Shown here: positions 17,698 to 52,793 of the stretch, one piece after another
How positions within the stretch are numbered: position 1 is the stretch's first letter
Layout of the letters: each line of letters begins with the position of its first letter
Assembly: GCA_014607495.2 (NCBI GenBank)
Contig: CP053153.1
Span: 3,100,001-3,164,000, forward strand
Length of the DNA: 64,000 bases
Direction of reading: 5' to 3'
DNA from: Carposina sasakii
Taxonomy: Eukaryota > Arthropoda > Insecta > Lepidoptera > Carposinidae
Notes under the pieces: model-generated
What the model was told of the DNA's origin: nothing
Seen by the model: the letters and a program-made list of their open reading frames with translations, nothing else
Database searches by the model: none
Made by a program: the position numbers and the translations under genes

Positions 17698-20020
17698 CTG
17701 GAAAACAATCACCTGCACAATTAGAAAAATTTAACTATGTATTACATATTTTAAATTTGAAGATTAAAAAGAGAGAAATAGAATTCGCGATCTATTCCAT
17801 TATGGATATACCGAAGACCTTGCATGAGTCAAATAGTTGAACGTTTTGGAAGATCTTCATCACGTATGATTGTTAATGATGGTTTTGAATAGTTTAATAA
17901 GAGTTTATTTTAAAAGCTTTTTAATTATGAAGGTACTTACGTGTTATTGAAGTAGAAACCTAAGGTTTTTTTTTACAAAATCTACCTTTAATTCCAGAAG
18001 ATCTTTAATGCGATTGCTCGATGATAGTGATACATTAGTAGCGAGTTTTTTATAGATTTAAATAGTGTTTGGATACCATCAATCTTAATTGCTTGGCAAT
18101 TAACTCATTGAGAGTCAGCCCTAGTTTCGATTCAAGATTAAAAATTACCTATACAAAGAGTAAATCTTTTTCTGAAAACATTAAAGCTAACGGATAAACT
18201 AGGTTTAACTCAAGTTTTTTTTTCCATTTTGAGATAACACCCAGTATTATAATAATAATAACGGATAAACTGCCTCTTCCAGTTTTTTTCTCTTTTTGAG
18301 ATAACAAATTAAAACAATAAAGATCAACAAAGATCGTCGTCGCATGGTAGATTTTACATGGTCATTTTACTTTTAGATCAATGTTTGAACTAATCCTCTT
18401 TTCAAATCGATAAAAGTATTTTCATAGTATTCACATACTCCACATGACTGTACCTTAACAGATACAGACTTATCATCTATAGACAGAACCTTGTTTTCAT
18501 ATGAATACTCAGTTCTATCATCAAACAACACAGAATTATAATCTTGTATGCTGATGGCAATGTGATAGAATAAATCTCAATATTTACCTACATTGGTTTG
18601 TTTTTTTGCTCAAGTCACGTTTTTAGGCTGGATTTATGCTAGCTTTTTTTTGCTTTGAGTCCGCGTGGATTGAAAAGTTGTCATGGAAAGTTTTATTTTT
18701 TTTTTCTGAATTCATCTGAATCAAATTTTGTGTATCCAGCTATCAGAATGTTTTCTAACTGTATATCAAAATTTATCTAGTTTTACTAAAAATGACAAAC
18801 TACGCTTTTATTGTTTATCGCATTTGTATATTTAGCCTATGTAGTTTTATTTTATATAGTTATAGCTTTATGCGTTATATAAGTGGTTTGATTCCATTAT
18901 AATATTAGTGAAGCTGAAGCCTATTATTGGGTGTGTAGGTATGTATATGAAGCCATATGCTTAAGAGCAGTTAAGTCGAATGGTGTATTGCTTATATTGA
19001 TGGCTTTATAAAATGAATAGCATAAAGAAAAATACGCGAAGATCTATTTTAAAGTGTAAGAAAAGATAAGAGCTGCCCCGAAACCTGACCTTAGCAATTC
19101 ATAGTACATGCGAAAAAAATTGGCAAATGTATTATATCCACTTCCCTAAAACCATTAACGTGTAGTCTGTCTCCTTGAGATACAAATAACATAGATGCGT
19201 ACACAGTTAAAAAAACTGTCATATTTTTTCACTCATGTGTAATTTTAATTCACGCATAGGAAAATATAAGAGTGGTTACAAAGGTGTCACGTCAGTCGTC
19301 AAGGCTCAGTACGATTTATCCAAATAATTGGGTGGTAGAGTACCTAAGTTTGCATTTAAAACTTAAATATGTGTAGTAAAACATGAATACAAAAACGTCG
19401 GACTTGGAGGTGAAGGTACCGACCAATCAATTAAATTTTCGGTATTTTTTTTTCGAGAAAGTATGTTCGTCGTAGTACAATACGAGTATAATTTCAATTA
19501 TATTCTATTTTCTGGAAGTCACAAACAAAGTCTTACATTTTTGTTTCGTACCTTGCCAGAGATACACCTTGAAACAGAAATATATAGGGGATATTATTTT
19601 ATAATTTAATGTGATACAACACATATTTTATACCTAGTAGGTTAATTTGACAGGAATTAAGAATGTAGGTCAGTCTGTTTATAAAAAGTGATGCGTACGT
19701 TCGAGAGTTCGTGATAATTGGCAGCTTTGGTTGTCCTCCAGGGCTTTGGCAATGAACGCCTCGTGTAAGGGTTTTTTCTACACTTCTATCGACATCAATG
19801 ACAAATTCTCTTTACTGACGATGGCATAAGATTTTTAAATACGCTTCATGGAAAGATCATTGTAGCCTTGAGTTCATTAACGTCTAATACCTGGGTAATG
19901 TCGATCTTGTGCCAAACCATTTCACATTAAATTTGATGTATCGTTTTTAAAAACCACGTTTTTAGTAATGCTGGATTTTTAATAAATATTTTAGACATTA
20001 ACAATTATCCTTTAACATTA
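17698..20020. other. long AT-rich stretch, no gene seen
   Basis: No exon or transposon end was recognised in 2.3 kb. A short direct repeat (AACGGATAAACT ... TTTTGAGATAACA) occurs twice at about 18189-18235 and 18263-18307. Confidence 0.4.
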
Positions 20021-20028
20021 GCTTATAC

Positions 20029-20692
20029 TAGGGAATGCAATCCCGCAACAAAATTTTAATACAGGTATTTGCGGGACTGAGAGGTCTAAGTCCCGCGGGA
20101 TCCTGCTATTTGCGGAATCCCGTATGTTTCTGAAAGTCATTGAGAAAAGAGAGAAATCCTGTATCATAAATGCATCTAGAACTAAAAATTAAACAAAAAA
20201 ATATTATTTAAAATTATGTATTGAGAGATTAATAAAGATATAATAAAAGAATAAAAATTATTAGAAAGAGTCAATAGGTGGTTTAGGCATTATTTTGAAA
20301 GTAACTGCGCATAAAACATAGCATGTTGATAGTCTTGTCTGCCAAACGATTCTTAACTTTACATGCCAGATAACCAGCAGCAGAAAACGCTCGCTCTGCT
20401 TCCACGCTTGTGGGTACAACAGTTAATAAAGCGTTGCAGGCAAATTGAAGATATTCGCCTTTTGATCCACCAGACTGAAACAAATTCATTTCCTTCTTAA
20501 TCAAAACTTAGAGAGAATGAACTCCAGAATGAGTGCGACAAGCAGTTTTAAAACTCGATAGAGTTTGTTCAAGTTCATTATCATTATCGTTGCGCAGTCC
20601 CGCTAATCCCGCGGGATCCCGCTCGATTTATGTGCGGGACTGGTCCCGCAAAAATAGTGCGGGATCCTGGTATCCCGGTATTGCATTCCCTA
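20029..20692. mobile_element. hAT element with intact ends
   Basis: A perfect 8 bp duplication GCTTATAC (20021-20028 and 20693-20700) brackets 664 bp. Both ends have the 13 bp inverted repeat TAGGGAATGCAAT. Subterminal blocks rich in CCCGCGGGATCC occur on both sides. The middle encodes the end of a hAT transposase on the minus strand. Internally deleted, so it cannot move alone, but its ends look usable. Confidence 0.92.
20283..20504 (-). pseudogene. hAT transposase dimerisation domain fragment
   Basis: 73 codons on the minus strand include PTSVEAERAFSAAG followed by a KNRLADKTIN block and a LMCF-like Met-Arg-Ser stretch. This is the hAT C-terminal dimerisation region, with the SVEAERxFS signature. 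The zinc-finger, catalytic and insertion domains are missing, so it is a remnant of the autonomous parent. Confidence 0.85.
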
Positions 20693-20734
20693 GCTTATAC
20701 GCATTTGTTTTTGATTCCCTCGTGCTGTTGTGCT

Positions 20735-21087
20735 AGGGGCGTTCTCTCAAGCAATGAGATAGCAACTTGTCACTGATGTTTTTACTTTTTTTTAGTTTAT
20801 CCCGAAGGAAAGGCAAGGGAACTAAGACCATACAGCCATTGTCTTTAGTAAAATGAATTCTGAATTTATGATGGATGATAATGATGATGAATAGAAACGT
20901 CAGGAAAATCCTCAAGAACGAGTGTGAAATTAACTGATGTTTTTACATCTGTCCCCACCATGCTAAACGTGACTGTAGGATAGATTCTCTTTTCTCTTTC
21001 TCAGTTCTTTCTGGCTGCCCCATTTTGGGAATACCGCTGTATACAAAACAACATGCATTCAATTGTGTCTTGACTACAAGTTAAAAA
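20735..21087. repeat. dispersed repeat, copy 1
   Basis: Contains GTTCTCTCAAGCAATGAGAT followed by AGCAACTTGTCACTGATG. The same phrase recurs at 34235 (same strand) and at 50562-50602 (opposite strand). A later block 'tctggctgccccattttggg' matches 'ttggctaccccatttcgag' at 34348. The family is unknown; a LINE or SINE tail is possible. Confidence 0.4.
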
Positions 21088-21396
21088 TACTAGTGGACGC
21101 CGGCGACTCCGTCCGCGTGGACTACAGAAAAAACAAAATGTCGAAATAATCCGGGATAAAAACATTTTCCCGGGATAAAAAGTAGCCTATATGTTAAGTG
21201 GGAAATGTCACAATATGTCCCCGAAAACTGCATCGAAATCGGTTCAGCCGTTTCTGAGAGAGTGTACAAACGCACAGACAAAAATTCAAAAAATCATTCT
21301 TTTGGGTACTATTGCGTTGATAAAGGTTTCCTATAATATTTTTTTCTCATATATCTTCCATGTACAGACAGCGATCCGTTACACTTTTATTATACA
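21088..21396 (+). mobile_element. RTE-type LINE 3' end
   Basis: Starts ACTAGTGGACGCCGGCGACT, has paired CCGGGATAAAA blocks around 21150-21180 and a 'tcgaaatcggttcagccg' block, and ends near 'cacttttattatacaggatg'. Same subfamily as 9298, 30288 and 37533. Confidence 0.6.
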
Positions 21397-21780
21397 GGAT
21401 GATTTTTGGTCGTCAACGTTCCCGCAAACTACGGAATCTTCTCATCATTACGATCATTTTTCTCCATGGAAGCATACCTGGGAAGTGTCTGGTTTCCAAA
21501 ATATTAGGGTCCAAAGTTGAGTAAATAGACTGCGTTTTTCTGCATAAATGCACATAGACGCGCGTAGCAGGATTATTTCACGAAAAATAATTAATATCTG
21601 TCTATAAAAAAACTAACATAAACACTAGACACTATAAATTTCGCACGATCAAGAAATTAAAAAAAAAATTTCAATAAAAAAAATTTTTTTCCCAGCTATT
21701 TTTTGGGCATAAACTTACTTTATTTCATGTATAGAATACGTACCCTTCGTTAAAGGTGGCCACAAAAAAACACCTGTATA
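21397..21780. other. intergenic, A/T-homopolymer rich
   Basis: No gene seen. Runs of A and T around 21655-21690. Confidence 0.4.
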
Positions 21781-22376
21781 CTCGGGTGAAGAATTTTTTC
21801 CATTTTCTTTATTAATAATTTTATAATATACTAGCAGCCGCCCACGACTTCGTCCGCGTGAGGGGGCGTTGTACCCGTCTATTTCAACCCCTTCATCCCT
21901 TTTTTTCGAAATAAAAAGTAGCCTATGTTCTGTCTCAGGGTCTAAAGATTGTCTGTACCAAATTTCATCAAAATCGGTTGCGAGGTTTAAGCGGGAAAGC
22001 GTAACAGACAGACAGACAGAGTTACTTTCGCATTTATAATATTAGTTGGGATAATATCTTGACTAAGATAAATTTATAAAAAACACTTCTCCATTAATAT
22101 AATCCGTAAGGAAATGGTTGATCGTTTCATCTTTAAACATTGTGCTGAGGGATTCAGCTCTGTTTCCCGAGATTTGGCTAGTGTATAGCTATCGGGATGA
22201 AGAATAACGTTGCCAATATGTAATTTAGAAAAGAGATGGTAAAATTCGTCATCCGAGTAATTAACCCGGTAGCTTAGTGGTTAGAGCGGCTGGCACGGTT
22301 TGCAGTGGTCGTGGGTTCGATTCCCACTCGAGTGAAGAATTTTTTCAATTTTCTTCATTAATAATTTTATATTATA
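21781..22376 (+). mobile_element. tRNA-like repeat split by a LINE tail
   Basis: The AGAATTTTTTCCATTTTC tail starts the copy, and the body resumes at 22053 with 'aatatcttgactaagata'. The tRNA-like module is at 22263-22334 (A box variant TAGCTTAGTGG, B box GGTTCGATTCC), followed by the tail again. A 224 bp LINE fragment interrupts it. The module belongs to the variant with GGTTTGCAGTGG rather than GGAATGCAGAGG. Confidence 0.7.
21829..22052 (+). mobile_element. LINE 3' end nested in tRNA-like repeat
   Basis: Starts 'actagcagccgcccacgac' and 'ttcgtccgcgtgag', ends 'gcatttataatattagttgg'. The host repeat resumes with AATAT, also present just before the insert, which suggests a short target duplication. 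Confidence 0.6.
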
Positions 22377-22486
22377 TGTGTAGATAATTATAGATTATCA
22401 CCTCCAGCTTAACTATTACCATCACATACAATGTTATTAATGCGAAAAAGACTAAGATGAACCATATAATTGGTCATACTTATATA

Positions 22487-22543
22487 CAGGATGTAACAAA
22501 AAGGGTATGTTAAGCGAAAAGCTACCCTTTCTGTTACATCCTG
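22487..22543. mobile_element. 57 bp minimal MITE
   Basis: CAGGATGTAACAAAAAGGG at left and CCCTTTCTGTTACATCCTG at right, flanked by TA on both sides. It consists almost solely of the two terminal repeats and a piece of the left subterminal region (GTATGTTAAGCGAAAAGC). Confidence 0.8.
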
Positions 22544-23408
22544 TATATCAAAAGGGTTTTTAGAAAAAACTAATTAGTGTCTATTTTATTCAGAAAAAAA
22601 TTATGTAACGCTTTGCATAACTTTAATATTCCGAAAAATTCGAAGACATGTCTTTTGTAATAACCCCCATAGAAGTACGTGTTACGGAGATAAGGGCAAT
22701 ATTGATTGCTAGTACCTTAATGCCTAACCCTATTTCATTGCAGACCTAAGAAATTCACGTAGATCGATAGTAAAACGGTAGGTAGTCCTCGATCACCGAA
22801 GGGCCCTTACTAGGTTACCTCTAGGGTACTGTCGGAACGGTGTAGTGCCCTCCTTTCACCTCGAGCTCGTTGCTCTACGGAACCTCGAACTCGATCCCGA
22901 CCCGTGGCAAAAGCTTCTATAAGTCTACCTAACTATATTAAACTCAAGGTACAGCACTTATACCAACTCGCAGGAAGGTTCATTTAATGCAATGTACAGA
23001 GAAATCAACCAAGCCATTGTTCTTTGAAAATGAGCCCTTTGGTTACCAAAATTTCAATCCCTTAATTCATTTCAGATTTAAGGTAAATTCAGATGGCAAT
23101 GAATGCTCTTTATACAAATCCTTTTTATAATAATGCAAGTTAGCATGTACATCCTGATTAAAATGAACCTATCATCTTGGTCCTAGAATAAAAAGTAGCC
23201 AATGAGCATTTGTCGCTTTAGGAAGTAGATTTCAAATCGAAATGATGAAGTAGTGTAAGGTCAAACAAGTAAATTCTTTCATCAAACCTTAAAGTTCAAT
23301 GAAATTTTTTTAAAACTTAATATATCTCTGTTTACTATTAGTTATTCTTTAATCACTTGTAACGATGCTAAAATGACCTTAGAATTAAACAGAATAGAAT
23401 AAGTAGTA
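22544..23408. other. intergenic DNA, no gene seen
   Basis: Nothing supported. A moderately GC-richer patch lies at 22780-22910 without an open frame of note. Confidence 0.4.
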
Positions 23409-23976
23409 CAGTGGTGCCTCGCATAACGAACGCCTCGCACAGCGAACGTTGCACACAACGAACTTCCTTTTCGTTCATTTCACGATTCATACAACGAACT
23501 TCGCTTCACACAACGAAGTCGCCCGATCTTCTACGATCACTGCCGATTAATTGCATCCTTCCGCGCAGGCAGTCGTTAGTCACTGAGCAGTACGCTTAAC
23601 TTACGCACGTGTCGCAGCAATCGTTCATCATTACAACAAAGTCGCCCGATCTTCTACGATCACTGCCGACTTTGGACAGGTTTTTCACTGCACCATCGGC
23701 CAAAAAGCGGAAAATGGATGAAGATGTGCAAGATACGATTATTTCTTAAAATTAAAAAATGTGTGTTTTTTTCATTATGTTTTTAGATGTATCTAAATAA
23801 AAATAATAACAAAAAATTTATCTTTTTTTTATGTCATCTTACCATATTTTATGCTACAGAACGAATTATTTTTTTTAACATGTATTGTTATGGGAAAACG
23901 CGTTTCACATAACGAACTTTTCGCATAACGAACTTGCTCCTGGAACGAATTAAGTTCGTTGTGTGAGGCACCACTG
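23409..23976. mobile_element. Tigger/pogo-like MITE
   Basis: The ends are CAGTGGTGCCTCGCATAACG and the complement of CAGTGGTGCCTCACACAACG, with TA duplications (23407-23408, 23977-23978). CAGT-GT-CCTCG-TAACG ends are characteristic of Tigger elements. Several AACGAACTT-type subterminal motifs occur at both ends. A stretch of about 38 bp (AAGTCGCCCGATCTTCTACG...) is directly repeated at about 23514 and 23640. A KKRKMDEDVQ-like coding remnant near 23704 may come from a transposase. Confidence 0.85.
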
Positions 23977-24007
23977 TACCTAAGTACTCGTAGTCATAGG
24001 GTATAGG

Positions 24008-24884
24008 AATAGAATTATAACCTATAGAAGTATAGTCCGAAGGCCGATTTTAGGAATTTTTATGGGTGCAAATTTGAACCAATCGCGGCTCTGTCATTCA
24101 GTGCTTAGCGGTCAGTGGCTACGTGTGTATGTCAACCTAAAGGACTTACCATGACGAAATGTGCACTGAGATCCTGCCAAAACTATGCTCAAAAACATAA
24201 GAAAATAAATAACATCACATTTCACCGGTAAATATTTGATGTTTTTGAGTAATTTCATTGATAAAACAATAAATACACAATCAAATTTTCATATTTTTTT
24301 ATCTGTCATTGAAAACAAAATGTTGCCATAAGTGTGAAATTTTACCCTATTTTTAAACATGCAGATTGTAGGTAAAAGTAGTTAGATCTACTTTGTCTTT
24401 GATTGATTGTGGAATTACCTGCAAGTTCTCTCACCGAATTATTTAAAACAATAATTGTTACTATAATATTATGTTAATTGAAATTAGATCTTTAAAATGG
24501 GCATCGTCCTTTCCTTTATTGAATGAAATAAAACCACGGAGAATGGCCTCACAGCTTTGTTGACATAATGACAAATTATTCAGAGGGACAATTATTAACA
24601 GAATATTGTATTTTTTTGTCACACTATTGGACCAATGATGTGGAAAAGTCCGATCATCTCCTTTTAATATATTTATATTTCACGATAATTCTACAAGAGT
24701 GTGCAAATCAGTATACTTCTCAGCATCAATAATAATTTTATCGACTATTTCCCCACATCTAGGGAAAACACATTTTTAAGGCAACATTAATTTTATGTCA
24801 TGCATACGTCAAGTCGATATTTTATGCCTATTTTTTCGCCTTGCGTTTGGTTGGAACACACTTTCTATAGGTTATAATTCTATT
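24008..24884 (+). mobile_element. P-superfamily element, internally deleted
   Basis: A perfect 8 bp duplication GGTATAGG (24000-24007, 24885-24892) brackets 877 bp. Terminal inverted repeats of 22 bp are identical and begin AATAGAATTATAACCTATAG. Near the left end is a THAP-domain exon. P elements have 8 bp duplications, terminal inverted repeats and a transposase with an N-terminal THAP domain. The transposase core is absent, so the copy is non-autonomous. It sits 31 bp from the Tigger-like element. Confidence 0.85.
24151..24227 (+). pseudogene. THAP-domain first exon of P transposase
   Basis: ATG at 24151 opens 25 codons plus two bases: MTKCALRSCQNY, a Lys-rich stretch, then INNITFH, ending at donor CG|GTAAAT. 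Cys4 and Cys9 with the following Gln-Asn, and the ITFH block, match the start of a THAP C2CH zinc finger (DNA binding at transposon ends). The second Cys and His of the finger would lie in a next exon that was not found in the element. The frame itself is intact. Confidence 0.75.
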
Positions 24885-24892
24885 GGTATAGG

Positions 24893-26859
24893 GTATCGAA
24901 CTCGAAAGGCCATGAAAAGTAATGATTGTGTTGCAAAATATTACAACTTACCATAATCTGAATTAGAAATGTTGACTGTTGACTTTTATAGACTTACTGA
25001 CATAGTTTCTATTATATTTGTTCAGATAGCGCCGATGGGCAATTTGTTAATAATCCGCGGTTAAATTGTTTTCTCGTTGTAAAAATTTGTCCTCCTTCGG
25101 ATCCCGCTAAATGTGTTCTTTTCTACAAAAACCTTTTGGAGATTTTGTTGAAAAATTGTAGCAGACTGACAGAGATTGAGAGAGAGAGAGGGAGAGAACT
25201 AACACATTTATTTTTATTGTATGGATGTAATTTTTGTGGAGCATCCAGTGTGACACCTGTGTTTGCTAATAACTTTTAAACATAAATACTACGTGAATTG
25301 GACTGTTATGGCAAAATCGGATTAAACCGGTTTTTAGCAAGCACAATAGGTTTTAATTTTATAGTTGACTTATTTAATTATTCTTGATGAAAAACTAGTT
25401 GTTCCTGACAAGTTCTTTCCCTTGGATTACCTACAGGAATTCTTTTAAGTCTTCCAAATTGCTCCCGGTTTAGAAAGCTTCAGGTTTTTTATTTCATTTT
25501 TATATTCTACGTAAAAAATGAATAAAGTTTACCCTTGGAAAGGCATATCTAACTTTAACTGTTTTGGATTTACAGCAATTCAAAAATACGAGCCGGCAAA
25601 ATGTTTTTGAAACGCTCCGTTTGCTCCATACTAAAATGGCAAAGACTTTGATGTCATAGTAGACAACCGTCTCAAATTAGTATGGGGAAAAAATGCAATC
25701 TTATTTTATAAACGTAATATTTTATATTTTGTGTATTGTTGTCAATAAAAATTGTTTATTAATAGGTGCAGATATTAATAAAGTATTTAATACTAACCGA
25801 TTGATGTTATTTTTGCACTCTTCGGTTTATATTTGTAATATCTTTCGAATAAAATATATAAAAAATCAGTTTTTGTGTCAGACGCATATTCCCTATTCCA
25901 AAATCGCAAAACTAGATTTAAGTTATATCAATAAGTAATTAAAACACATGCATATGCTCTTTCTATTTATGTTAAAAAAACAAGTCGCCATCTTTGCTAA
26001 TTCACCATTTAGCTTATATCTAGATTTTAGCATTTGCTGCAAGTAGACCTTAACGGGTTAAACTTGGTTTAAAACGACATTTGACTTCAGAATGTATGAA
26101 ATATCTGTCAAATTTAGCCATAAAAAGCAACCGAAATAATGACAGTGCCTGAGTTTACTTATTTTATTTTGGGTGCAACAAAATATTCAATAGGTAAATA
26201 TAGTTTTGTTATTTTGCTGGTAGCTATCTAAATGTTGGGAATAATGTCAATTGCAGTGATAATAAATTATGATGACTGACCTTTCCGTGCTTTCCCTGCA
26301 TTTTCTGACGCAATTTTTGAAATGAATTGCGTGAGTTTCGTAATCTAGGTGTTTATAATGATTAACAGCTCCTACAATTTACCTAAAAGTAATTTTTTGA
26401 ACTAGGTTGGTAAATCATTTTCTCTCCAAGAGATAAAAAATTGGTTATTATTCTTCGTTTAATAAATATAATTATTTTGAAATAAACATAATATCGGATA
26501 AAATTTTATTTATTCCATTCTGTTTGTCTTAATTTACATACATAGGTACTATTTGTCTTTGCAATATATTTTTCTATACAATCATGTGTTGGAGTGAAGT
26601 TACAATCTATAGATAATGTTTTCGTTGTAATGTTTGTGCGTGCCTAGTCGGTATAAATAATTCCCATATCACGCCAAGTGAGAGTGATGGCTTTCAAATT
26701 AAATATTGTTATTATTCCAATATAAAACCTTTTTGTTTTTACTTCGTAGTTATTACAGATTCAGGATCCTTGTAATTTCATCACCATAGATCGTTGACCC
26801 GAATGAATTAAGTTTTTATTACTATTTTATTTATTCCTTTACACTTCGTTCCCCTATAT
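24893..26859. other. AT-rich stretch, no gene seen
   Basis: No exon or transposon end recognised in about 2 kb. A short (GA)n run lies at 25171-25194. An 81-codon frame at 25693-25938 is low-complexity and AT-driven. Confidence 0.4.
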
Positions 26860-27045
26860 TTGTCTATTCAGGCTGGTCTGAGCAGGAGACGCAATCATTG
26901 TATTCATTGTAAGGTATATCTAGCTCAGGGGCACCATTTAGAGCCGCTAACTAGCCAACCAACCGCATTAAATATATTTAGTTATCTACTTAGTATATGT
27001 AATTGTCAAATAAATTCTATCTATCTATATATCTATCTATCTACT
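26860..27045 (+). mobile_element. possible SINE with (CTAT)n tail
   Basis: A moderately GC-rich head (GGCTGGTCTGAGCAGGAGAC) is followed by an A/T-rich part ending AAATAAATTCTATCTATC and a (CTAT)n run at 27018-27043. A simple-repeat tail after an AATAAA-like run is typical of insect non-LTR-mobilised sequences. No Pol III boxes were identified. Confidence 0.3.
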
Positions 27046-27512
27046 TCTTAAATTTAAGAAAATATTATTTCTACGTTGCGAGTGTGAGTAAACTTGTTTT
27101 TAAGCCTTAAAAATATATTTAAGTGCGTTCAAAGATACCAGTTTTAAATCGTCCTTGACTAGTTGACAAAAAATACGCACTTTTGCAGAATATTGTCCGA
27201 GCTGGTGCTAGCCTGGTTCCGAAAATTTTGCGGCTCGTTTATTTACAGAAATAGCTGAATTAGCACGCGAATCCAACGTGTTCAATTTTATTGTCCTGGC
27301 TAGACGACGAATGAGTTGGCTTCCGGCACGCCTAGCACTTTATGTATTTTTTTAATACACTATCAGATATACATTTCATCGCTTGTCCGCTATAGCACAA
27401 ATGTACCTAATTTTAGATTTGTAAAGTTTGCGAATCATTTATATTGTGGAAAAGTATGTCATTTATAATCACAATAATTATGTATCCCAAGACTGGCTTG
27501 AGTTATTTACCT
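27046..27512. other. intergenic DNA, no gene seen
   Basis: Nothing supported. Confidence 0.4.
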
Positions 27513-27735
27513 CTATTGAGGGATCGCCCACCACCGGGCCCTATACCCTCCGCTGACCCTCGGATCTGCCGACTCATGATCACGAACACAAGACACTACA
27601 GTCGCAACGAGAAGCCAGATCCAAGCACCTAGCATGCAACCATAAATACATAGCTGCTAACCCGAAAACCAATTAAAACTTTAATCGACATATGTTTCGC
27701 CAACACCCGTGGCATCATCAGGATTAGTTTTCCAT
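27513..27735 (-). mobile_element. hammerhead-bearing repeat, copy 1
   Basis: This segment is shared with 40541-40712. In minus-strand order it has the ribozyme, an AT-rich linker, then a GC-rich block with GCATGCTAGGTGCTTGG and ending in GGGCCCGGTGGTGG. A 40-codon ATG frame (27635-27513) opens with MLGAWIWLLVATVV, signal-peptide-like. Hammerheads of this type mark the terminal repeats of Penelope-like retroelements and the non-autonomous retrozymes. No Penelope reverse transcriptase or GIY-YIG domain is nearby, so the copy would be non-autonomous. Confidence 0.6.
27675..27731 (-). ncRNA. type I hammerhead ribozyme
   Basis: On the minus strand: stem I 5' strand AAAACTAATC (27731-27722), CTGATGA core (27721-27715), stem II GCCA/TGGC (27713-27710 with 27702-27699) with a 7-base loop, GAAA (27698-27695), stem III of two pairs AC/GT with loop ATAT, cleavage triplet GTC (27689-27687), stem I 3' strand GATTA, AA bulge, GTTTT (27686-27675). 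All conserved core bases are present. One oddity is an extra T (27714) between the core and stem II, where a G-C pair usually stacks; this could weaken activity. Self-cleavage would fall between 27687 and 27686. Confidence 0.75.
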
Positions 27736-28315
27736 GTTAGTTCTATCTACCGAACCTTATTATTTTTTATTAATTATGAAATTATTTTATATAATGAGTT
27801 ATTTAGTCAATCTCGTTGGTTTATATAACTCAGCATTTTTCTAATTAATTATTAAAATGTGTAAATTCAGTACCTCTGGTTCTTTAAAAATGTAACAAGT
27901 CTCATTTAGACCACATCCTCTCGTGTCTTATAATGCACCTCATATTTCCTTGCATCATGTAAATCAGAGTGGTTTTGATCTGCTTTTACCTTACTGATTC
28001 AAGAAAAACTATGCATTTAGGCATCTATACCAAATCAAACTAATTAGTAGTGAATTAGTCAACCAATCTGCTTTAGTCGCCTTTTTTGTTAAACTACCAC
28101 CCACTGAGCTCTATCTCATTTACATTCTGTTCGTCGGTATAATTTTGTGTTCGTTCAAACATACTAGCTATATTTGCAGCAATTATTACATGCATTTTAC
28201 TTTCAGCTCTGCGAATTAGTGTTTAACGGTTTGAACTTAACTTTGGTGCATTTTTTTAAAATACTATCTCTTCGTGTATCAATCAATAGTTTTAACTTAT
28301 CATCGTTAAATGTTG
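27736..28315. other. AT-rich, no gene seen
   Basis: No feature recognised. Confidence 0.4.
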
Positions 28316-29141
28316 TTAAATACCTCTTACGATGAGCACAATTTCTTTGCGAAATGTAATGCGGATATTGAACGCCAGACAGATTTCGATTCTAGACAGA
28401 ATCGATTTCCTGGCTAGAGAAATTATTTTTTTTAAGCGATAAATTTTTACGAGGTGTTCCTCGCTATACCAATTTGGTGCATGAGCACATGCTTTTATGA
28501 GGCGGTGCCAATATTTTAAGATGACTGATACGCTCACTTCGTTTGCCGTCATGAATGACAATGTAGATTTGTATTGATGAGCCGGAATAACTAAATGTTC
28601 AATACCCATCGAATATTAGAAAAATGAATTCATTCTAGTGCCTGCTTCACTTCACATATTTTCTCCTTTTGCTGATTTTGATCCCAGGAAATGGTTCTTG
28701 TGTTTAAAGAGTCGGCCTCGGGATGCGTAGCGTGCGCATTTTTGACACAGTAACCGGCAGAGCGACCCAGTTACCATTGTTCGAACCGGCCAACGGCCAA
28801 ATCTATTTTGATTTTTAGCTGCCGTTCGCTCGTGTAGTCTGCCACTACTCAATTTTTGCAATGTTTACAGTATCCAACAACCACGTGGCGGAGAAAAATA
28901 TGAAGGAGTATTATCGAAACATTCTAAACTTTCCATCGGACTTCCTCGCAGCCAAAAGCTTACTATAATTCTACCCGTGTAATTTTTCCTCTTCATCTGA
29001 TATTTTAAGACTGTCCATCAGTTAAAACTATTATTGAATTATTGCCAAAATTCAACTTCTCCATTAGTTGATTTCGGATCACAATAGTATTTTTCCAAAA
29101 GTACAGAAGCAGCTGTAATACGAGTATTATACTGATGTCGG
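28316..29141 (-). other. unassigned frames downstream of gag-like ORF
   Basis: Two minus-strand frames, 28861-28652 (69 codons) and 28609-28316 (97 codons), follow the SR-rich frame in the same direction and may be later parts of the same retroelement. Neither shows a protease, RT, RNase H or integrase motif, so no function is given. Confidence 0.25.
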
Positions 29142-29693
29142 TCAATGGTGGCTTATGCCGCTGCCGTCATTTAGAAAATCCTCAAAAAATGCAGAAGATT
29201 CATCATACCTCGACCTCTTGCGCGTTGGTGAACCTTTATCTTCTTCTGGACCATCACGATAACTAGGAGCTGACTCTCGACAATCATGAATAGTTGTCAC
29301 GGCGTCTAAACGCCTGCGTCGTTCGTGCCGATCCCGCTCCTTGCGTACTTCGTCTTCTAGAATTTGCAATCGCTCTCGTTCAAGGGCAAGTTGTTCTTAT
29401 CGTTCATGTAAATTATAAACCTTACTCCTATTGCGGCTACGTCGTGCACTTGTGCGCCGACTTTGGCTACGACTGTGGCGTTGGCTAGGTCGGGTATTCA
29501 TACATCGGCTACGACTACGGCGTATGTTCGTGCGCCGGCTGTGGCTACGACTTCGGCGTGAATTATGAGTCAGATTCCTAGGCATCTCACTGCTACCTAA
29601 TCTCGAACTTAACCCACGAGGTGGTGTATTTAGCCGACGATGACTGGTTTCACGATTCTTGTTGTCCATTTTATCTGAAACTTGTAATTGCAA
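29142..29693 (-). pseudogene. SR-rich gag-like ORF with in-frame stop
   Basis: One minus-strand frame runs from 29693 to 29142, broken by a single TAA at 29399-29397. The first part is rich in Arg-Ser dipeptides (RRSRSHSRRTNIRRSRSR). After the stop the frame continues EQLALERERLQILEDEVRKE, a charged coiled-coil, then RDRHERRRRLD and an acidic end SSAFFEDFLNDGSG. A CAA-to-TAA change explains the break, since Gln fits the coiled coil. SR-rich N-termini followed by coiled coils occur in gag proteins of insect gypsy-like and DIRS-like elements; a host SR protein is an alternative. Confidence 0.5.
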
Positions 29694-30287
29694 TTGCTGT
29701 ATGCCGATTATTTTGTAATTTGATCATGCGGTAAAGAGAAAAAAATAGTTATAGCGTGTTATTATGATTTTTTTATTTCATTTATTTATTTATTTTAAAT
29801 CCGAATTAATCGCCTATTATTCACCTTATTTTTAGTATATTATGCTCGTAAAATATATTTTATGATGTTACCTTACTTATGCGCGTAATATTTTAACGTT
29901 ACACAACCAGTTAATATAATAATCTCCCAATATAACACTGTTATCTGTGGGCGTTATCAAGATTTTATCCCACTTCTGAGTTGAAAAAGCTCAGATGAAA
30001 TAGCAATAAAATCCATTAACTTCAATAACAATATTATATTGAGTAACTCTAAATTCTAATTAACAAAAGCAATGGAAGCATACACTTACACTATAACAAA
30101 ATACCGGCAACTGTCGCTTCTCGAATGGCCGCCAAAAAAAACAATAAAGACGCGCGAACCGGAGTCATGAGTGACTTTTAAAAAGATAACTAATTGTTAC
30201 AATAGGCTTGCAGAGAGAATGAATGTTTCGGTTCTATATGCAAACAGCTACGAGAACCTTTTTACTTCTGTTATCTACATCTTCTAT
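29694..30287. other. AT-rich flank of gag-like ORF
   Basis: No LTR, primer-binding site or gene recognised. A GC-richer patch lies at 30095-30170. Confidence 0.35.
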
Positions 30288-30614
30288 ACATATAATAAAA
30301 ATGTAACTGATCGCTGTCTGTTCATAGAAGATATATGAGAAAATATATTATAAGAGATCTTTATTAACGCAATAGTACCCAAAAGGAATGATTTTTGGAA
30401 TTTTTGTCGGTTTGTCTGTGCGTTTGTGCACTCTAATCTCAGAAACGGCTGAACCGATTTCGATGCAGTTTTCAGGAATAGGTATATTGTGACAGGTCCC
30501 ACTTAACATATAGGCTACTTTTTATCCCGGGAAAATGTGTTTATCCCGGATAATTTCGACATTTTGTTTTTTTCTGTAGTCTACGCGGTCGGACTCGCGG
30601 GCGTCCACTATTAT
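30288..30614 (-). mobile_element. RTE-type LINE 3' end
   Basis: Starts on the plus strand CATATAATAAAAATGTAACT and ends GACTCGCGGGCGTCCACTA. Paired CCCGGGAAAA/CCCGGATAA blocks lie at 30525-30552. Same subfamily as the copies at 9298, 21088 and 37533. Confidence 0.6.
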
Positions 30615-31559
30615 ACATACATATATGTATGTCTTGTAGATATATTATGTTGAGCGGAGATGGGTAATTAATATTCCCTCGTGTTCTCTTTTGGCAGGCA
30701 CGACTATGAGGAATTAGTTCACCAGAGTTGAAATGTCTATTTTAAAGGAACATCAAAAAGGGGAAAGATCTTTTAAATTACGTAATTTCTTTTACGAGTA
30801 ATATATTCGTGAATAATTTCTGAACGATCTGTTATTTTAACTTTTGTAAATGAATCATCAATTATTTTATTTTGCCATAAATAATATGTACCTACCTAAT
30901 ATTAGGTAAATCACTCACCGGATCTATGGTACATTTAATATATACTATTAAAGTCGTGGTTTTCTATTCCAGACCCTGTTGGATGTTTGCCCAGTTTGCA
31001 CAATTTGCGTCAGTCAGTTCTAACACCCTATTAAACTGAAACTTCGGGTTTTGTTAAACATAATTAGTACAATACAAACTAATTGCTACTTCCTTTTTCC
31101 AGATGAAGAAACACGTTGGTGAAAGGCGTGTAAGGAGGTTATGAAGATACTAGAAAAGGGTATTCCATCAATATTAAGAAATATCCACCTCAAGGTAAGT
31201 CGTTATTCTGTTTAACAACAACGTTTCTCCTCAATTCTCTGAAAATTTTAATGGATGTACATATTAAGTTCACATCTAGGTGGTCTTCATGCTAAACAAA
31301 ATTTCACAGGCGCATTATCGTTTCGGTATATAGGCGTATCTCCTGCTGCGGTATACGGTGCCAAACTTTCTATGCGCGCTATTTCTGTGCGCGTACAGAA
31401 AACCGCTGACGCACGCGCACGGTCAAAGCTCCGGGCCTGACGTCCGTCAAGTAGCCGAAGTGCTTATTTCTGGATGTTATAGTTTCCCGCTATTATGGTT
31501 TTTTTAAAATACTTTTAATGCTCTGTTCCCATTTCTGAATAGTTTTATGGTAGAGTTTG
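30615..31559. other. intergenic DNA, no gene seen
   Basis: A GC-rich CpG patch at 31375-31445 (GCGCGTACAG, ACGCACGCGCACGG) ends a 61-codon frame; no domain or splice support. Confidence 0.35.
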
Positions 31560-31795
31560 TACCATCTTATGCCTCCCCGTGGGTATCGTACGAGGCGATT
31601 AAGGGTTTTCGGGAAGTGGGCAGCAGCTCCTCTCTTGTGTACAACATAGTCAAAAAATCAGACTGCGTTCAACAACCCGCCTGCCCAGCGTGGTGAATAT
31701 GGGCAAAAACCCCCCATGGCAGTAGCCTTGTGGCATGCCCTAAGGGAGGCTTACGTCCAGCAGTGGACTGCAATAGGGTGAAGAAGAAGAAGAAT
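31560..31795 (+). mobile_element. LINE 3' end, 'cagcagtgg' type
   Basis: Ends GAGGCTTACGTCCAGCAGTG then GACTGCAATAGGGTGAAGAA and (GAA)n. Upstream is a 'cctccccgtgggtatcgtac' block and 'gcctgcccagcgtggtgaat'. These are typical of lepidopteran LINE 3' UTRs in which the final codons merge into the tail. The (GAA)n run is the tail. Confidence 0.6.
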
Positions 31796-34234
31796 ATATA
31801 AAGTACCTACTGTATTTCTGTCACCTAATGCTATAAACATTCCCTTCGGTCTCAACTCCAACCGTCGATATAGCCTTTTTATTATTCACCCTAGTGCATT
31901 TCTAAGGGTACACGAAGCATGACTGTTATCTGGAGAAATTACGCCTCGGTGATATTGTAATTGTAACTTGCTAAGGTAACTTAGTAAACATGGAGGTAAA
32001 AAAACTGGACCATGAATGGCCTCGCCATCGTCCTATTGCCTGTATAAATATTCAACAGATGCCATAGATGGTTCTAGAAGTGTTGAATAAATCGGATTCA
32101 CTTCATTAGACTTTTGCGTAATTCACTTTTGCTTGTTAAATTGTACTGTGTAATTCTTGCAATATTTTTTTTATAATATTTACTCGGTCACAGGAATAAT
32201 GGCTAATAAGCCTTATTTCTTTCCTACCGATTTTGTAATAAAGGTGTTACATTTAAATTTCTTGAGATAGCGATCAATTACTTGATCAATTGCATGACAA
32301 AATTTTCTAAGCTATATTCTGTGGTGGTATTAGGCTGTCCATGGCAACGAGTAATAACAGTGGTTCGATTGAACAAAGGGCAGGTGCAGCACCAACGCTC
32401 ATTGCTCTAGGCTGTAACGGAAATATCGACCCACTGAACGTTAAAATGTTAAATTTGCACATAAACAATACCATTGAGTGTAATTATTGTATGGGAGAAT
32501 TTGTTTATGAACGGATGAATTAATTTTTGCTCACACCTACTATACTATGTAAATTTTTGTGTCGTTTTAAAGCTACTTTTACTTATCAATATGTTCGGTA
32601 ACTTGGTGTTATCTCCAACTAACCAGACTATAGGTATAGTCAAAACTGAAACGCGATATACACGCGATAAAAAATATTTTGAGTACCTACTATTTTAGAA
32701 AATATTTTACAAATTTTTTGCATCTTGCCCGGTTAGTGACAGATACATATTATGAAAAGGTTAAAGAAATTTAAACTGAAAGTCCAAATGTGCTTCCTTT
32801 GTATATTTAGTATGAGTACAGTCTAATATGACTTGGTCTTTAAAAAATGTGATGACTATTTGGATCAATTTGCATGCTTGTATTTGATTGGAGCACGTAT
32901 GATCCAATATCACCGTAACTAATATATTGTTACGTCGTAAAATTAAAGAACATTCGTAATGCTGAAGTATCCATAATCGATGCAAGTACTAGATTAGATA
33001 ATATCTTCGAGGTAAAAGTCGAAGAAATGCAATTTATTCAACTTCCTATAGTTGTATACAAATGTCTGATTCGAATGTTAGATGGGGTATGTATGTAATG
33101 TAATATTTACTTACTAAGATAAACATAATAAATAAGTTAACAACTTATATTACGTCCACGACCGAGTCGTGATGCTTGAAAAAAATAGATTAAGTGAATT
33201 TAGGGCCGAATTTTCCAACGTCAAATAACCTATGTGAAGCATAAAGTTGATCATGTCTATCTTGATCAAGGTTTAGAGATACAAGAAAGACATCAATTTT
33301 ATTCTTCGGATTCTTCAGGCTATCTGACCATTACAAAAAAATACGATTTGAAATCCCCTCCTCTCCATTATGCTCTAATCTCCAAAAAATAACAAAAATT
33401 TCTAAGAAGTCCTAATCATTGTAGCGTAGAATTTCGGATACGCATTTCTTCGAGTAGTTATATATGTCATGTCCCTCCCAAAGCAATTTATGCTGCAACT
33501 GCGAACACAAATCTTTTTGATTAATGACCTCCCTTGCATTCGTTACGCTAGGTATCCGTTGAAAGAGTAGAGTTGATTTCTGGTGATTCCTAGAGCAAAT
33601 GTTTTAAGTCTATTCATAGAAGATACTTGATCAGAGACGTAAACGACGCTTTTTGTTGTTTGTTGACGAGGATCCTCTTCTAGCAAACCGCACGCAATAG
33701 CCGGATTGGTGATCCAAAAGCGGGATGCGTAAATTTTGATGTAGCTAGACAAGCATGTTAACCTAAATCAGAAATAGCATTGGGCAAAAGATTAGCGATA
33801 CAGCTAACAGATAATTCTGCGATTAAAAGGAAAACTCATTTACCACCCACGTAAAAAGTTGGTAAAACGTGCTCCACTTCTCGATCTATTTGAGTTAAAC
33901 CATCAATTCGGGTGAGATTTATCCGAGGTCGAGGCGTGGAACACAATTCAGGAATGTGAACTATTTAATACAGCTCTCGTGCCGCTATACAATGGGTTAG
34001 TTTAACGAGCAATATATTTGCTGCAAACTTTAAACCTAATGTCACGATCGCGATAATTCAGGTTCTGTACTGGCACGCCGCCGCGGCGTAATCATTTCAA
34101 CCTAGATAGGTTTAAAGCGTGGATGTATTATATTACTCTATCTGCTATATACCTGTCCTGATGCGTGGCTTTACCTACTAAAATACATCAGCTGCATCTC
34201 TTTCGGTGCATATCGATAGAGTCGAGTAAGGAAC
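31796..34234. other. AT-rich stretch, no gene supported
   Basis: A 60-codon ATG frame at 32341-32523 (MATSNNSGSIEQRAGAAPTL) lies in a slightly GC-richer block and reads like repeat-derived sequence; not called as a gene. A 69-codon minus frame at 33752-33543 has no motif. Confidence 0.35.
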
Positions 34235-34400
34235 TCGGGCATTTTCTCAGGCAATAAGCTAGCAACTTATCACTCATCATTTAGGTACTACATCTGTTAC
34301 CATTGAGCTAAAAGTGGCTATGGAATCTCCTTTGTTATCCTGCAGTTTTGGCTACCCCATTTCGAGAACATAGCAGTGTGTGTACCTATATGTACCTGTT
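34235..34400. repeat. dispersed repeat, copy 2
   Basis: Carries GCATTTTCTCAGGCAATAAG then CTAGCAACTTATCACTCATC and, about 100 bases on, GGCTACCCCATTTCGAG. Same order as in 20735-21087, more diverged. Confidence 0.4.
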
Positions 34401-35014
34401 ATATATTTTGCTGCAGCTGATTTATCAAAGGCTTTAATTAGTGAGCATTTGTATGCGTAAAGAGTATGTTTTGTAGAACCGGACACTTAGGACATGGTAT
34501 CTATTTATTTTATCATCAACAGTTTGTGTATGAAGGTAAAATAATGTACATACGCTCGCAACCTAGGTACTTCTACAAGCTAGCCTATATGTATCTTCTT
34601 ACCTTCTATCAATAAGAGCAACCAGAATAATTTCCTTTAGTGTTGGTACAGAAAACTTCAGAACAAATGAATTTAATTTTTTTTTACCGACTTAAAAAAA
34701 CACAAACGACGAAAACTTTAACTAAAAAGCGATAAATAACGTAACTAATTTATCTACTTCATACATATTATCTAAAATTATTTAAATATTTACAACTTAA
34801 TACTTTAACAAAGTCATCTTACTCTTTGGACTCACTTATTCTTTGGAGTCGGTGCCAGCCTAGGTAACGTAGTCTGTTGTTTTGATGGACGCGTTGGCGT
34901 TTTTCTCGAGTTTTAGTTGTGTATAATGCATTGTGTACTTAAATAGATGCTAGTTTATATACTTAAGGGTTTCATCGTTACCATCTCAGGAGTAGTACCT
35001 ACCCGTATAAGAAT
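34401..35014. other. intergenic, old repeat fragments
   Basis: TTTACCGACTTAAAAAAACA at 34683 resembles the start of the duplicated repeat at 35486 in reverse, and 'ggagtcggtgccagcctagg' at 34847 is repeat-like. No gene. Confidence 0.35.
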
Positions 35015-35356
35015 CACGTTAGCCCTACATATAGAGTTTCCATCGACCAATTGCAGTATTATCCCCTAACTCCTAACCGTTAAGGAGTTCTATAGCTTCA
35101 TCATCAGCATAGCAGCATGAGATGTTGATTCAAGTAACACGTTAGCCCTACATCCTACTAAATAGTTTTCATCGATCAATTGCCGTACTGTCTCCTAAAT
35201 CCTAACCGTTAAGGAGTTCTGTAGCTTCATCATCAGCACAGCAGCATCAGATGTTGATTCAAGTAACACGTTAGCCCTACATACTACTGTGTCCCAACTC
35301 CTAACCGTCAAGGAGTTCTGTAGCTTCATCATCAGCACAGCAGCATCAGATGTTGA
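35015..35356. repeat. ~125 bp tandem repeat, three units
   Basis: Units start CACGTTAGCCCTACAT at 35015, 35137 and 35267. Each has TCCTAACCGTTAAGGAGTTC and TAGCTTCATCATCAGCA. The third unit lacks the internal 'catcgatcaattgc' block. Units 2 and 3 are closest. The frame on the minus strand repeats a TSDAAVLMMKLQNSLTVR peptide purely because of the repeat. Confidence 0.75.
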
Positions 35357-35485
35357 CACCCTGAAGCATATACCTGAGTAAGACATGATTACGTAACAAA
35401 AGCACCATACGAGCATACAATTTTCGGTGATTGCCCTAGATTTCTCCTGGATCCCATCATCGGATCCTGACCTGGTGAAAATGGG

Positions 35486-35827
35486 ACCACCTCAGAAGTG
35501 AACTCTATCCAACAAAAAATTTTTTTTTTAATCCGTCTATAATTGACGGAAATATCGGTGAACATACATAAAAAAATATTATATAAAAAAATACAGACGG
35601 ATTGAGAACCTCCTCCTTTTTCTTGAAGTCGGTTAAAAAGTATCATGGAACAAGTTCACCACCTCAGAAGTGAACTCTATCCAACAAAAAATTTTTTTTT
35701 AATTCGTCTATAATTGACGGAAATATCGGTGAACATACATAAAAAAATATTATATAAAAAAATACAGACGGATTGAGAACCTCCTCCTTTTTCTTGAAGT
35801 CGGTTAAAAAGTATCATGGAACAAGTT
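35486..35827. repeat. 171/172 bp tandem duplication
   Basis: Two head-to-tail copies (35486-35656 and 35658-35827) differ by one base (AATCCG/AATTCG) and one T in a homopolymer, so the duplication is recent. Each copy holds the inverted pair AATCCGTCT ... AGACGGATT and the TCCTTTTTCTTGAAGTCGG block of a repeat common in Lepidoptera. Confidence 0.85.
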
Positions 35828-37532
35828 AGAAAACTGATGTAACGGGCGCATTGTTGACAAATCCCTCAATGTAATTTCTTTGGAATACGAGTTCCGAACT
35901 CGGTCAAAGTTATTTGAAAGAAAGAGAAACTTCTAAAAAACGGGCTGTTATTTCTAGAGTCAGTTGTTTAATCAGGATGTATCCATATTATAACACGTAA
36001 ATTCGCATTGCTTTTGATGAAAGCTGGCATATTTTAGAAACCTGAAAGAACACCTTTTGAATGTATAATTTCCACCTTTATTTTTATTGAATTTTATGGC
36101 GTCAATAAGCCTAGTCATCAGGAATCAATTAATATTCCGCGGCAATTTGCTTTATGACTGTAAATTTGAATAATAAAGAGGAAGTTATATCTTACGCACA
36201 GGATGTTATATCATTGCAACATTTCTTGATACTTTTTGGAGCGTAAAACATATGATCAGTATCTTGTTTCAGTAAAATTGAAAACTATTTACTGACTAAA
36301 ATTTTTATTAACGACTTTGAGGACTTTTACCAATGGACAAGATGCTACTTTCCTGTCAATGAAAGAGAGAAATTGAAATTTTTAATTTTCTTTCCTTTTA
36401 AGTCTGGTGTAACAAAATTGTACGGATCCTTGCATCATCCGTTGTGTGTATTCATCATGCATGTACAATGTCCTATTTTATTGTGCAATAGTAATATGTA
36501 CAGCATACTGTGGTTAGCGTGATGAAATACGATAAATGATTTTGTCATAATTATAATGTTGAGGTTTCGGAATGTCGACTTTTGTAGGGACACTATGCAT
36601 TTGTATCTTTCTGTTCCCACGACATGCACGGAAGGAGATGTAGCTGATGTATTCTAGTGAAGCTCCGCATCAGCACAGATTCACGTATGTGTATTGTAAA
36701 CAAGCCTTACACATTCCCCTGTTTGATTTGTCGTCTGTTCCGAAGTGTTAGCTAATTATCTAATATTATAAGCAAGTTTTATATGAAGTTGGGCTTTGTG
36801 AGCTTATAAAAATTCTTTTCAAAAGCGGTGTGTCTAGTTTATTAATTCCATTATATTATCTAGGTTTGTAATAGCTCCAGTTTCTATAAGTTTCCATGTA
36901 AACGATTTATCTAAAGGTACAAATTAATGGGCGTGACGCGGTGGGAGTAGTCCGACTACATTAATGTAGCATGGTGTATGAACATAGCAGCAGTTCAAGC
37001 AGGTAACGTAACCCAACTCTTGCATTTGCTTTTCGAACGTTTTACTTATTTAGTAGTAATGAAGAATGGTTTTTGATATCGAATAAACTAAAATAAATAA
37101 GATTTGTATCCTTGTTAAGTTGATTGTCAATATGCTTCAGCTCCTCCATTGGAAAACAAATAAACTGCTACGAAATTCTATTAGGTCCTGATAGAGAACT
37201 ATTTCTGTCTTGTCATCTTTATGAGTTAATATACTGTGAACCTGTTACACTATGTTCGCTAATGCAGGTTTGACAGCCTAGGAAGGTGGTCCAGAGTCCA
37301 GTCCAGGCCCACGTAACTCTCGGCTCGCAGTTATATTATTCTAACCATCGGTAATAATTTATACCAGAACTGCAGGACGTGTTGCGGTGTTTAAATTACA
37401 TACTATACTAACGTATAAATTGATATTTACTTAAGGACCTACATTAGTTGATGGTGATACATAAGGAAAAAGCAACAGAAAGTTTTTTTAAATATCAATA
37501 GTTCAATACATAATCTATATAGGTACGAGTAC
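35828..37532. other. AT-rich stretch, no gene seen
   Basis: No exon or bounded element. At 36652 the phrase TTCTAGTGAAGCTCCGCATC matches AATCTAGTGAAGCTCCGTAT at 50662, a short dispersed repeat. Confidence 0.35.
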
Positions 37533-37816
37533 ATATAATAAAAATGAAACGGGTCGCTGTCTTTACATGGAAGATACGTGAGAAAAAATATTATAGGAGA
37601 CCTTTATCAACGCAGTAGTACCCTTTTTGTCTGTTTGTGCACGCTAATCTCAGAAACGGCTGAACCGATTTCGATGCAGTTTTCAGGAATATATTGTGAC
37701 GGGTCCTACTTAATATATAGGCTACTTTTTATCCCGGGAAAATGTTTTTATCCCGGATAATTTTACATTTTGTTTTTTCTGTAGTTCACGCGGACGGAGT
37801 CGCGGGCGTCCACTAG
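37533..37816 (-). mobile_element. RTE-type LINE 3' end
   Basis: Starts on the plus strand CATATAATAAAAATGAAACG and ends GAGTCGCGGGCGTCCACTAG. It lacks part of the 'acccaaaag' block present in the related copies. Confidence 0.6.
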
Positions 37817-39679
37817 TAAACATTATATTTCTTATTTGCTAGAGTTGTGCCAGACAGTTCTATGTAAATCCCTCTGTGATTGAAATTCTAAAGAATACAG
37901 ATATTTGTTATCCTGGTGGATACTTATTACGTAGGTATAATAATTTTAAAGATATCTACTAGATTCGCTTGAAGACAGAAACGGATACAAATATTTTATC
38001 TGTTTCACCTCCCTAGTATCTTTCAGATCAGCATTATCTCAAAACTGTTAAGGTATCGACCAATGTGAAGTATGTAAAATGATATATTTTCAGAAATGAC
38101 AATCATAGATCTAGAAAGATTTTTCTGAGTCTGAATTCAGATGATTTCTGAGTCTGAATTCAGTTAGTCTGTTTCACGATATTTCATCATCAATATCTGA
38201 TATGACCAAGCGTTTATATCAAGACAGAGTACCTAATGTCCCATCAGTTATATCTGGCCGGCATCCAATACAAGATGCTCTCACACGAATATGGAGTTGC
38301 GTTTTCGTCTGTTAAATGCTGATTATTGGTTACTAAGTGCATGTCTTTTAGGGTATTAGCCCTTTATTTTTTTATTAAATCCTAGTTAAATTGGAGAGAA
38401 TAAGGCTTTCGTGAAAAGTATAAAGGATTGTTAATAATTAAAAAAATATACCTTATTACCTTCGGTAACATCTGCTAAATATTGAATGAATAGCAATTTA
38501 GTACATTATGTTAACTGTAAAGGCTACATGATACCACTTTCTTGTAAATTCAAGAGCAATGATTGAATATACGCCATTACTGACTACTGAAAACTGGTAC
38601 AATGTGCCAAGAATGGCAGTCTAGATAATTTATTTCGCAGATTCGAAGTCCATATCTTTGGTAACAAATAATTAAATCAATCACGCGGACCAACCATTAC
38701 CATCGCACCTTGAAGAGGGTCCTACCAAGTACTGAATCAGCTTTGCTGGCGATTTACAAATATTGGAACTATTTCTTCATATAAAAAAATATTTCTTTTT
38801 GGATCGGAATACTTTGGGCTGATGTAATACACAAGCCCTTAGTGGCTGATGTAAGAATAGTAACAAGATTTGCGGCTAAACTAACTAATCCGTTTATGTT
38901 ATGCGCGGTCGTGTCAGACGGCGACTGGCCCATGTAATGTTTGTCTTTGTATGTAATTAGTAAATATTTATGTAAGTGTACCACTCCCGAAGTACTGTAG
39001 CTAATGGTTACGCGACCCGTTCCGAACATAATATTGTCTTATTGTAGATACTGTTGTGTAACCTGAATGAAACCTAACGATTCCGAACTAAGTATTACTA
39101 TCTACGCAGATTTTTGGACAGTAAGTTCAAAGTTTTGATTAATCTGTTCTAACACGTAAACTTTAATTTGTGTAGTGCTAAAAAAGGCGAAATATTCGTA
39201 GTGTCAAAGTCTGACTGTCCAGTAGCCTTCATAACCATTGTGCGTTCTTTCTTTCAATCATTTCGAGACTACTAGGAACCTGTATAAGAAATCCACGTTT
39301 TGGAATCATTTCAGTCAGATAAATCTAAATAGGCTGAAAGTTGATTTTTTTGCAAATATGCTTAGCGTGTACTAGGAAATTTTGCACGAAATGCATCAGA
39401 CTTAGAACTTCTGATGGATTGCCAAGAACTGCAGTCGGTGATTTAAGTAGCTTATGTTATTGCTAATTCATATGATCGTGATACATTCAGAAAGTAATTT
39501 GAATAGAATTTATATAATTTTATAATTTAATAATGTTCGCTTGTAAATTAATACCAACTCGTAACGAATTATAAGATGACACATATAGGTAGAATAAGTA
39601 GCAACGAATTGTAATAACATTATGATAAAGGTAAGGAATATCACGTGTACCTATAAATATATATGTATTTGAATCTATC
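37817..39679. other. intergenic, no gene supported
   Basis: A direct repeat TTTCTGAGTCTGAATTCAG lies at about 38123-38163. A minus-strand frame of 86 codons (39029-38769) has moderately protein-like composition (MFGTGRVTISYSTSGVVHLH) but no motif or splice support. Confidence 0.35.
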
Positions 39680-52664: not shown

Positions 52665-52793
52665 GATTTCACAATCACAATTTTAGACTTGCCAATAAAA
52701 CGCTCCACACAAACGGCTATCACGACCTGACGTCACTCTTAAAGCAACTTATATGCGCGTTAAAGAACTTTTGTTCTACACCTATATTAAATA

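Follow-up and report, generated by a model that had tools for sequence, protein, structure and literature searches.

Minimal type I hammerhead ribozymes are present by the thousands in many metazoan genomes, mostly dispersed in non-coding DNA, and in invertebrates most of them have a stable helix III, as far as the available sections of the source go (PMC7761336). In the axolotl motifs, by the accessible part of that report, stem III has one or two pairs and a tetraloop and cleavage is better as dimers, the Amex1 family having a palindromic helix III (PMC7229834). In the Penelope-like element PAc of the anole the ORF opens at stem II, 26 bp upstream of the cleavage site; C3 and G8 precede its start codon, and the hammerhead cleaved only once the element's protein had been added, according to the portion of the article at hand (PMC11167929). 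The monarch butterfly carries 9,901 copies of a single Penelope-like family (PMC8848866, in its available extract). A search of the hammerhead literature on Lepidoptera and Bombyx gave no title on Lepidoptera-native hammerheads among the matches listed, which does not establish an absence of reports. Caution is advisable with small motifs, as the partial text of PMC6155905, which also covers the part played by G12 and G8 in catalysis, regards as probable false positives most matches that minimal, relaxed motifs had given in earlier searches.

We have focussed on a candidate motif of this kind in a 64-kb stretch of the Carposina sasakii genome (the window, meaning the whole stretch analysed). 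Its features are summarized in Table 1. An earlier note on this DNA had read a type I hammerhead with a full core (CTGATGA, GAAA and GTC) on the minus strand, and direct reading bears out the sequence and all the stated pairs, with the core exact; the layout is a confirmed, real observation. The helices (5+5 bp in the open-ended stem I, 4 bp in stem II and 2 bp in stem III) consist of standard pairs throughout, and the type I consensus (CUGANGA, GAAA and UH, with A15.1-U16.1) is matched exactly at 27721-27687. Stem III, with its 2 bp, is marginal, stem II is preceded by one inserted base, and stem I has no loop on its 5' side. The usual loop-loop contacts of hammerheads use such a 5'-side loop; motif numbering and loop-contact rules are those in general use. 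The sequence of stem III, ACAUAUGU, is palindromic (self-complementary). On balance, we think that a retroelement probably left this motif behind as a solitary minimal type I hammerhead, which is likely to be degenerate.

Table 1. Features of the candidate hammerhead and of the folds competing with it, in window coordinates.
Feature	Position	Strand	Remarks
Candidate minimal type I hammerhead ribozyme, whole motif	27675..27731	-	direct reading; 57 bases; AAAACTAATC CTGATGA T GCCA CGGGTGT TGGC GAAA C ATAT GTC GATTA AA GTTTT
Stem I, 5' half: distal AAAAC 27731-27727, proximal TAATC 27726-27722	27722..27731	-	pairs with 27675-27679 and 27682-27686
Core CTGATGA (C3-A9)	27715..27721	-	exact match
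Extra T (position 9.1), after A9 and ahead of the G10.1-C11.1 pair	27714	-	direct reading
Stem II GCCA/TGGC, 4 bp: GCCA 27713-27710, TGGC 27702-27699	27699..27713	-	
Stem II loop CGGGTGT	27703..27709	-	
Core GAAA (G12-A15.1)	27695..27698	-	
C 27694, then ATAT 27693-27690 (stem III)		-	
Stem III region ACATATGT	27688..27695	-	monomer: 2 bp and ATAT loop; two copies: possible 8-bp self-complementary helix
GTC; cleavage predicted after C 27687, before G 27686	27687..27689	-	cleavage position predicted from hammerhead layout
Stem I, 3' half: GATTA 27686-27682, AA bulge 27681-27680, GTTTT 27679-27675	27675..27686	-	
Competing structures	27661..27687	-	minimum-energy folds

The candidate resembles each of the described systems in part. 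With the metazoan non-LTR retrozymes it shares the type I layout, the 2-bp stem III with tetraloop (as in Amex2) and a palindromic loop (as in Amex1); unlike them, it lies outside a 150-450 bp tandem repeat and canonical loop contacts are not apparent (PMC7229834, as partly available). The hammerheads of Penelope-like elements and Terminons are similar in being of a minimal type I, with a weak helix III and without classical loop-loop contacts, and in having an AUG where stem II begins, a short distance ahead of the cut. They differ in that no element ORF or tandem partner was found for the candidate and in that they usually do without non-conserved helix III bases, whereas the candidate keeps its ATAT loop (available parts of PMC7761336 and PMC11167929). 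From most invertebrate type I hammerheads it is set apart by a helix III that is not stable (PMC7761336, same sections).

How often would such a motif arise by chance? It was the sole descriptor match on either strand of the window, in which CTGATGA is found nine times on the minus strand and never on the plus strand, and only the copy at 27721-27715 passed. We compared it with order-2 Markov windows of the composition of the real one, using a loose type I descriptor (stem II of at least 3 bp, stem I of at least 4 bp, at most one inserted base, and for stem III A15.1-U16.1, one or more further pairs and a loop of 3 nt or longer). In 51,950 simulated windows there were 382 type I places, of which only three were as compact as the real motif (stem II of at least 4 bp with a loop of up to 10 nt, stem I of at least 5 bp, loop III of up to 8 nt), figures that are somewhat generous because the thresholds were fixed after the motif had been seen. 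A palindromic stem III was absent from all three, and so was a distal stem I helix of 4 bp or more. Two further simulations allowed stem III a 2-nt loop and required one pair more: 347 windows gave one row, and 57,707 windows gave 210 type I rows, two compact and two palindromic (some places being counted twice). When the core was kept and the rest shuffled, both stems recurred in 678 of 400,000 shuffles within segments and 214 of 400,000 pooled ones, falling to 46 and 22, respectively, with the added requirement of a distal helix (4 bp or more).

A type I layout with complete core is therefore improbable by chance in a single window, and to this extent the earlier statement that chance agreement is unlikely was right. 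It does not extend to the genome, since about 0.45 motifs this compact are expected by chance in 500 Mb (an assumed size), and one per insect genome is quite possible. Types I, II and III together gave 466 rows in the 57,707 simulated windows (again with some places counted twice), so that chance hammerheads will be met by anyone reading many windows. Public DNA offers another comparison. The pattern CTGATGA-N8-24-GAAACNNNNGTC gave at least 151 rows. Of these, 27 came from genome contigs (25 loci, each with ATAT) and at least 124 from viral-contig loci, at least 120 of the latter in a single scan. The rows are partly interdependent, three of them being from Salinicoccus. Stem I of at least 4 bp together with stem II of at least 3 bp was present in one of the 151 core matches, and the stems of the candidate (5 and 4 bp) were reached by none, in both cases among the matches listed. 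The same stem III was found at 4 viral and 25 genome loci, none with candidate-like stems; Rfam recognized a single type II hammerhead (L003) in the four viral loci.

The covariance models give a less favourable picture. No hammerhead family was found in the window at the Rfam gathering threshold or, over its whole length, at E <= 2, and a 401-nt stretch gave no match at E <= 10. The check proposed in the earlier note, a search with Rfam Hammerhead_1 (RF00163), went against it: in an 81-nt slice the model scored 10.7 bits (cutoff 34, E 7), and RAGATH-1-hammerhead 13.2 bits (cutoff 56.3, E 3.7). Rescaled to one family over 64 kb, the Hammerhead_1 score corresponds to about 1.3 expected chance matches. 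By the window-wide result and this score, a hammerhead of Rfam grade is ruled out. The candidate has in common with RF00163 the open stem I, the CUGAUGA and GAAA core, the GUC site and a short self-complementary stem III adjoining the core; it differs in its score, in the extra U at 9.1 and in a stem I without 5'-side loop. The overall reading as a type I hammerhead finds partial support: it holds for layout, core and rarity, and is weakened by the Rfam score and by the unfavourable fold predicted with the native flanks.

The extra T between CTGATGA and stem II had also been recorded as a deviation, which it is, albeit a minor one. We examined 120 core matches, i.e., type II core pattern matches in viral contigs plus L003 from another pattern, and kept 37 distinct viral-contig sequences in which both closed stems had at least 4 bp. 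Stem II follows CTGATGA directly in 35 of these 37, and in the other two there is one extra base between A9 and the G-C pair, U both times (all among the matches listed); in the candidate, too, it is a G10.1-C11.1 pair that closes stem II. The carriers are L003, which scores 43.8 bits and is above the Rfam cutoff, and one of three copies in L184. In L003 the Rfam alignment shows a two-base insert at this site, the single U being the shorter reading. By analogy, the extra T looks like rare but natural and tolerable variation, the comparison being with long-stemmed type II hammerheads of putative activity that share with the candidate one extra U at the same site. A viroid hammerhead with an extra residue after A9 was reportedly described by De la Pena and Flores in 2001. 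The occurrence of U at 9.1 in two of the 37, among the matches listed, suggests that strict descriptors may miss some copies, and the main use of the candidate, if it is real, lies in testing how far the hammerhead core may stray. The L184 hammerheads, three of type II on one strand of a viral contig (7730-9034) with the extra U after A9 in one, are a natural set for the effect of that insertion. In L003 (5442-5508 and 6138-6416) the type II hammerhead lies close to a RAGATH-8 RNA (147 bits), and one strand of the viral contig carries both.

Predicted folding depends strongly on how much flank is included. For the bare 57-mer, mean pair probabilities of stems I and II were 0.75-0.81 and that of stem III about 0. 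A 67-nt stretch was no more stable than its shuffles (z = 0.12), and the hammerhead as drawn has -5.2 vs. a minimum of -10.2 kcal/mol (a gap of 5.0 at 37 C); stem III pairing was 0-0.01 in this 67-mer and at most 0.10 in the flanked sequences. Adding 20 nt of native 3' flank brings stem I down to 0-0.01, because its 3' half is drawn into a competing 7-bp hairpin, CGATTAA/TTAATTG (27687-27670). In all eight contexts with at least 20 nt of 3' flank stem I was at 0.00-0.08, while with 5' flank alone it was at 0.53-0.58 for 20 or 50 nt and at 0.06-0.08 for 200 nt. In the 227-nt fold TCGGG (27665-27661) pairs with CCTGA of the core (27722-27718). The dimer with an 8-bp helix III is predicted at -20.0 kcal/mol, 6.1 above the best dimer fold (-26.1) at 37 C. 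Metazoan retrozyme monomers are highly self-paired RNAs; self-pairing of the minus strand over the tentative interval 27505-27731 gave z = -1.34, with 26 of 200 shuffles as good. The folding models leave out tertiary energy and co-transcriptional folding. As they were used without a positive control of the same topology, we believe that the predicted native-flank fold counts only moderately against activity.

If the motif is what we think it probably is, its ancestor would be one of the dispersed hammerheads that animal retroelements such as Penelope-like elements and retrozymes have left in non-coding DNA. On transcription of the minus strand, stems I and II would fold about the CUGAUGA/GAAA core. 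The phosphate preceding G 27686 would be attacked by the 2'-OH of C 27687, and the cut ends would carry a 2',3'-cyclic phosphate and a 5'-OH. A stem III of only 2 bp should make for a weak monomer. Judging from its letters, the palindromic ACAUAUGU suits cleavage as a dimer, in which two tandem or intermolecular copies would be joined by a common helix III of 8 bp. An AUG (27715-27713), made up of A9, the extra U and G10.1, is located 29 nt before the predicted cut, with a reading frame of only 28 codons. The parallel, drawn with the published description of the anole PAc, may be taken as a lead. It is conceivable, but a long shot, that the candidate represents a type I lineage with an extra U after A9 in which the core overlaps a start codon (CUGAUGAUG) and the palindromic ACAUAUGU makes cleavage dependent on two copies. 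Cleavage in such a lineage would process the element RNA and decide whether the start codon stays attached to it.

The link to Penelope-like elements and retrozymes, which the earlier note had drawn from the small stem III and the type I layout, is sound as a resemblance and lacks the element context. It rests on resemblance because no related copy was found in the window and no tandem repeat, reverse transcriptase or GIY-YIG domain nearby (the two domains within about 2 kb of the motif). On the minus strand the exact 57-mer is found a single time, 27500-27900 is free of overlapping tandem arrays, and no repeat within 20000-36000 or 26800-28400 covers the motif, except for a 13-nt inverted match touching its end. 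Six-frame translations of 25500-30299 (stops as X) matched no Pfam family at E <= 0.5. With neither tandem repeat nor Pfam match in the regions searched, we reject, on present evidence, the idea that the motif sits in an intact Penelope-like element or retrozyme.

The most serious alternative is a chance resemblance in AT-rich non-coding DNA that was never a ribozyme, which we regard as possible, if doubtful. It would account for the sub-threshold Rfam score, the AT-rich stem I, the need for one insertion, the predicted unfavourable native fold and the missing element context, and the genome-wide expectation leaves room for it. What speaks against it is the rarity per window, the scarcity of comparable stems given the core, both in the shuffles and in public DNA among the matches listed, and the fact that no compact simulated place combined such stems with the distal stem I helix or the palindromic stem III of the candidate. 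These features lead us to prefer a degenerate hammerhead of retroelement descent, which, if real, would add one weak, solitary member to the many known in animal genomes.

Readings in which the ribozyme is still functional, either within an element or domesticated, are improbable even when taken jointly. An intact ribozyme in the pLTR or 5' end of a Penelope-like element, or in a retrozyme, processing the element RNA (probably as a dimer), would fit the small type I layout, and the AUG before the cut recalls PAc (PMC11167929, by its partial text). Against it stand the short frame opened by this AUG, the absence of Pfam matches in the translated region, and the single occurrence of the motif away from tandem repeats, and we judge it very unlikely. 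Slimmer still are the chances of a domesticated hammerhead in an intron or UTR of a host transcript, like the vertebrate examples. This would agree with the GC-rich stretch (0.52-0.55) that follows the motif just downstream in the minus-strand sense and ends in a donor-like AG|GTAAAT at about 27510 (-), which could be an exon border, but a putative splice donor is a short motif.

The surroundings contain several other sequences deserving mention. Upstream on the same strand there is a coding-like stretch (29142-29723), Arg/Ser-rich and then Glu/Arg-rich and broken by a stop, perhaps a gag-like remnant. Neither this nor the neighbouring coding-like pieces matched a Pfam family above cutoff (a weak TBCC match, E 0.07, was below it), and the searches for protein relatives, with 2 candidates for 28316-28615 and 501 for 29400-29687, gave none at E <= 1. 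A dispersed repeat of ca. 300 bp, found on both strands (3663-4359, 22079-22379, 43346-43672, 49304-49631 and 52489-52664), holds tRNA-like cores, with six Rfam tRNA matches and four ARAGORN predictions (two Ser, one Pro, one unassigned), and looks less like single tRNA genes than like a tRNA-derived SINE or a mobile tRNA cluster. The inverted repeat at 1739-2004, with 119-nt arms that are 91% complementary and a sub-threshold match to MIR6217 (68.5 vs. 110 bits), is probably a hairpin-forming transposon remnant. Further repeat copies are located on both strands at 21087-21394, 30291-30614, 37526-37827, 52783-52986 and 60613-60700, some of them ending in CGCGGGCGTCCACTA, an ending that presumably resembles those of Lepidoptera Helitrons.
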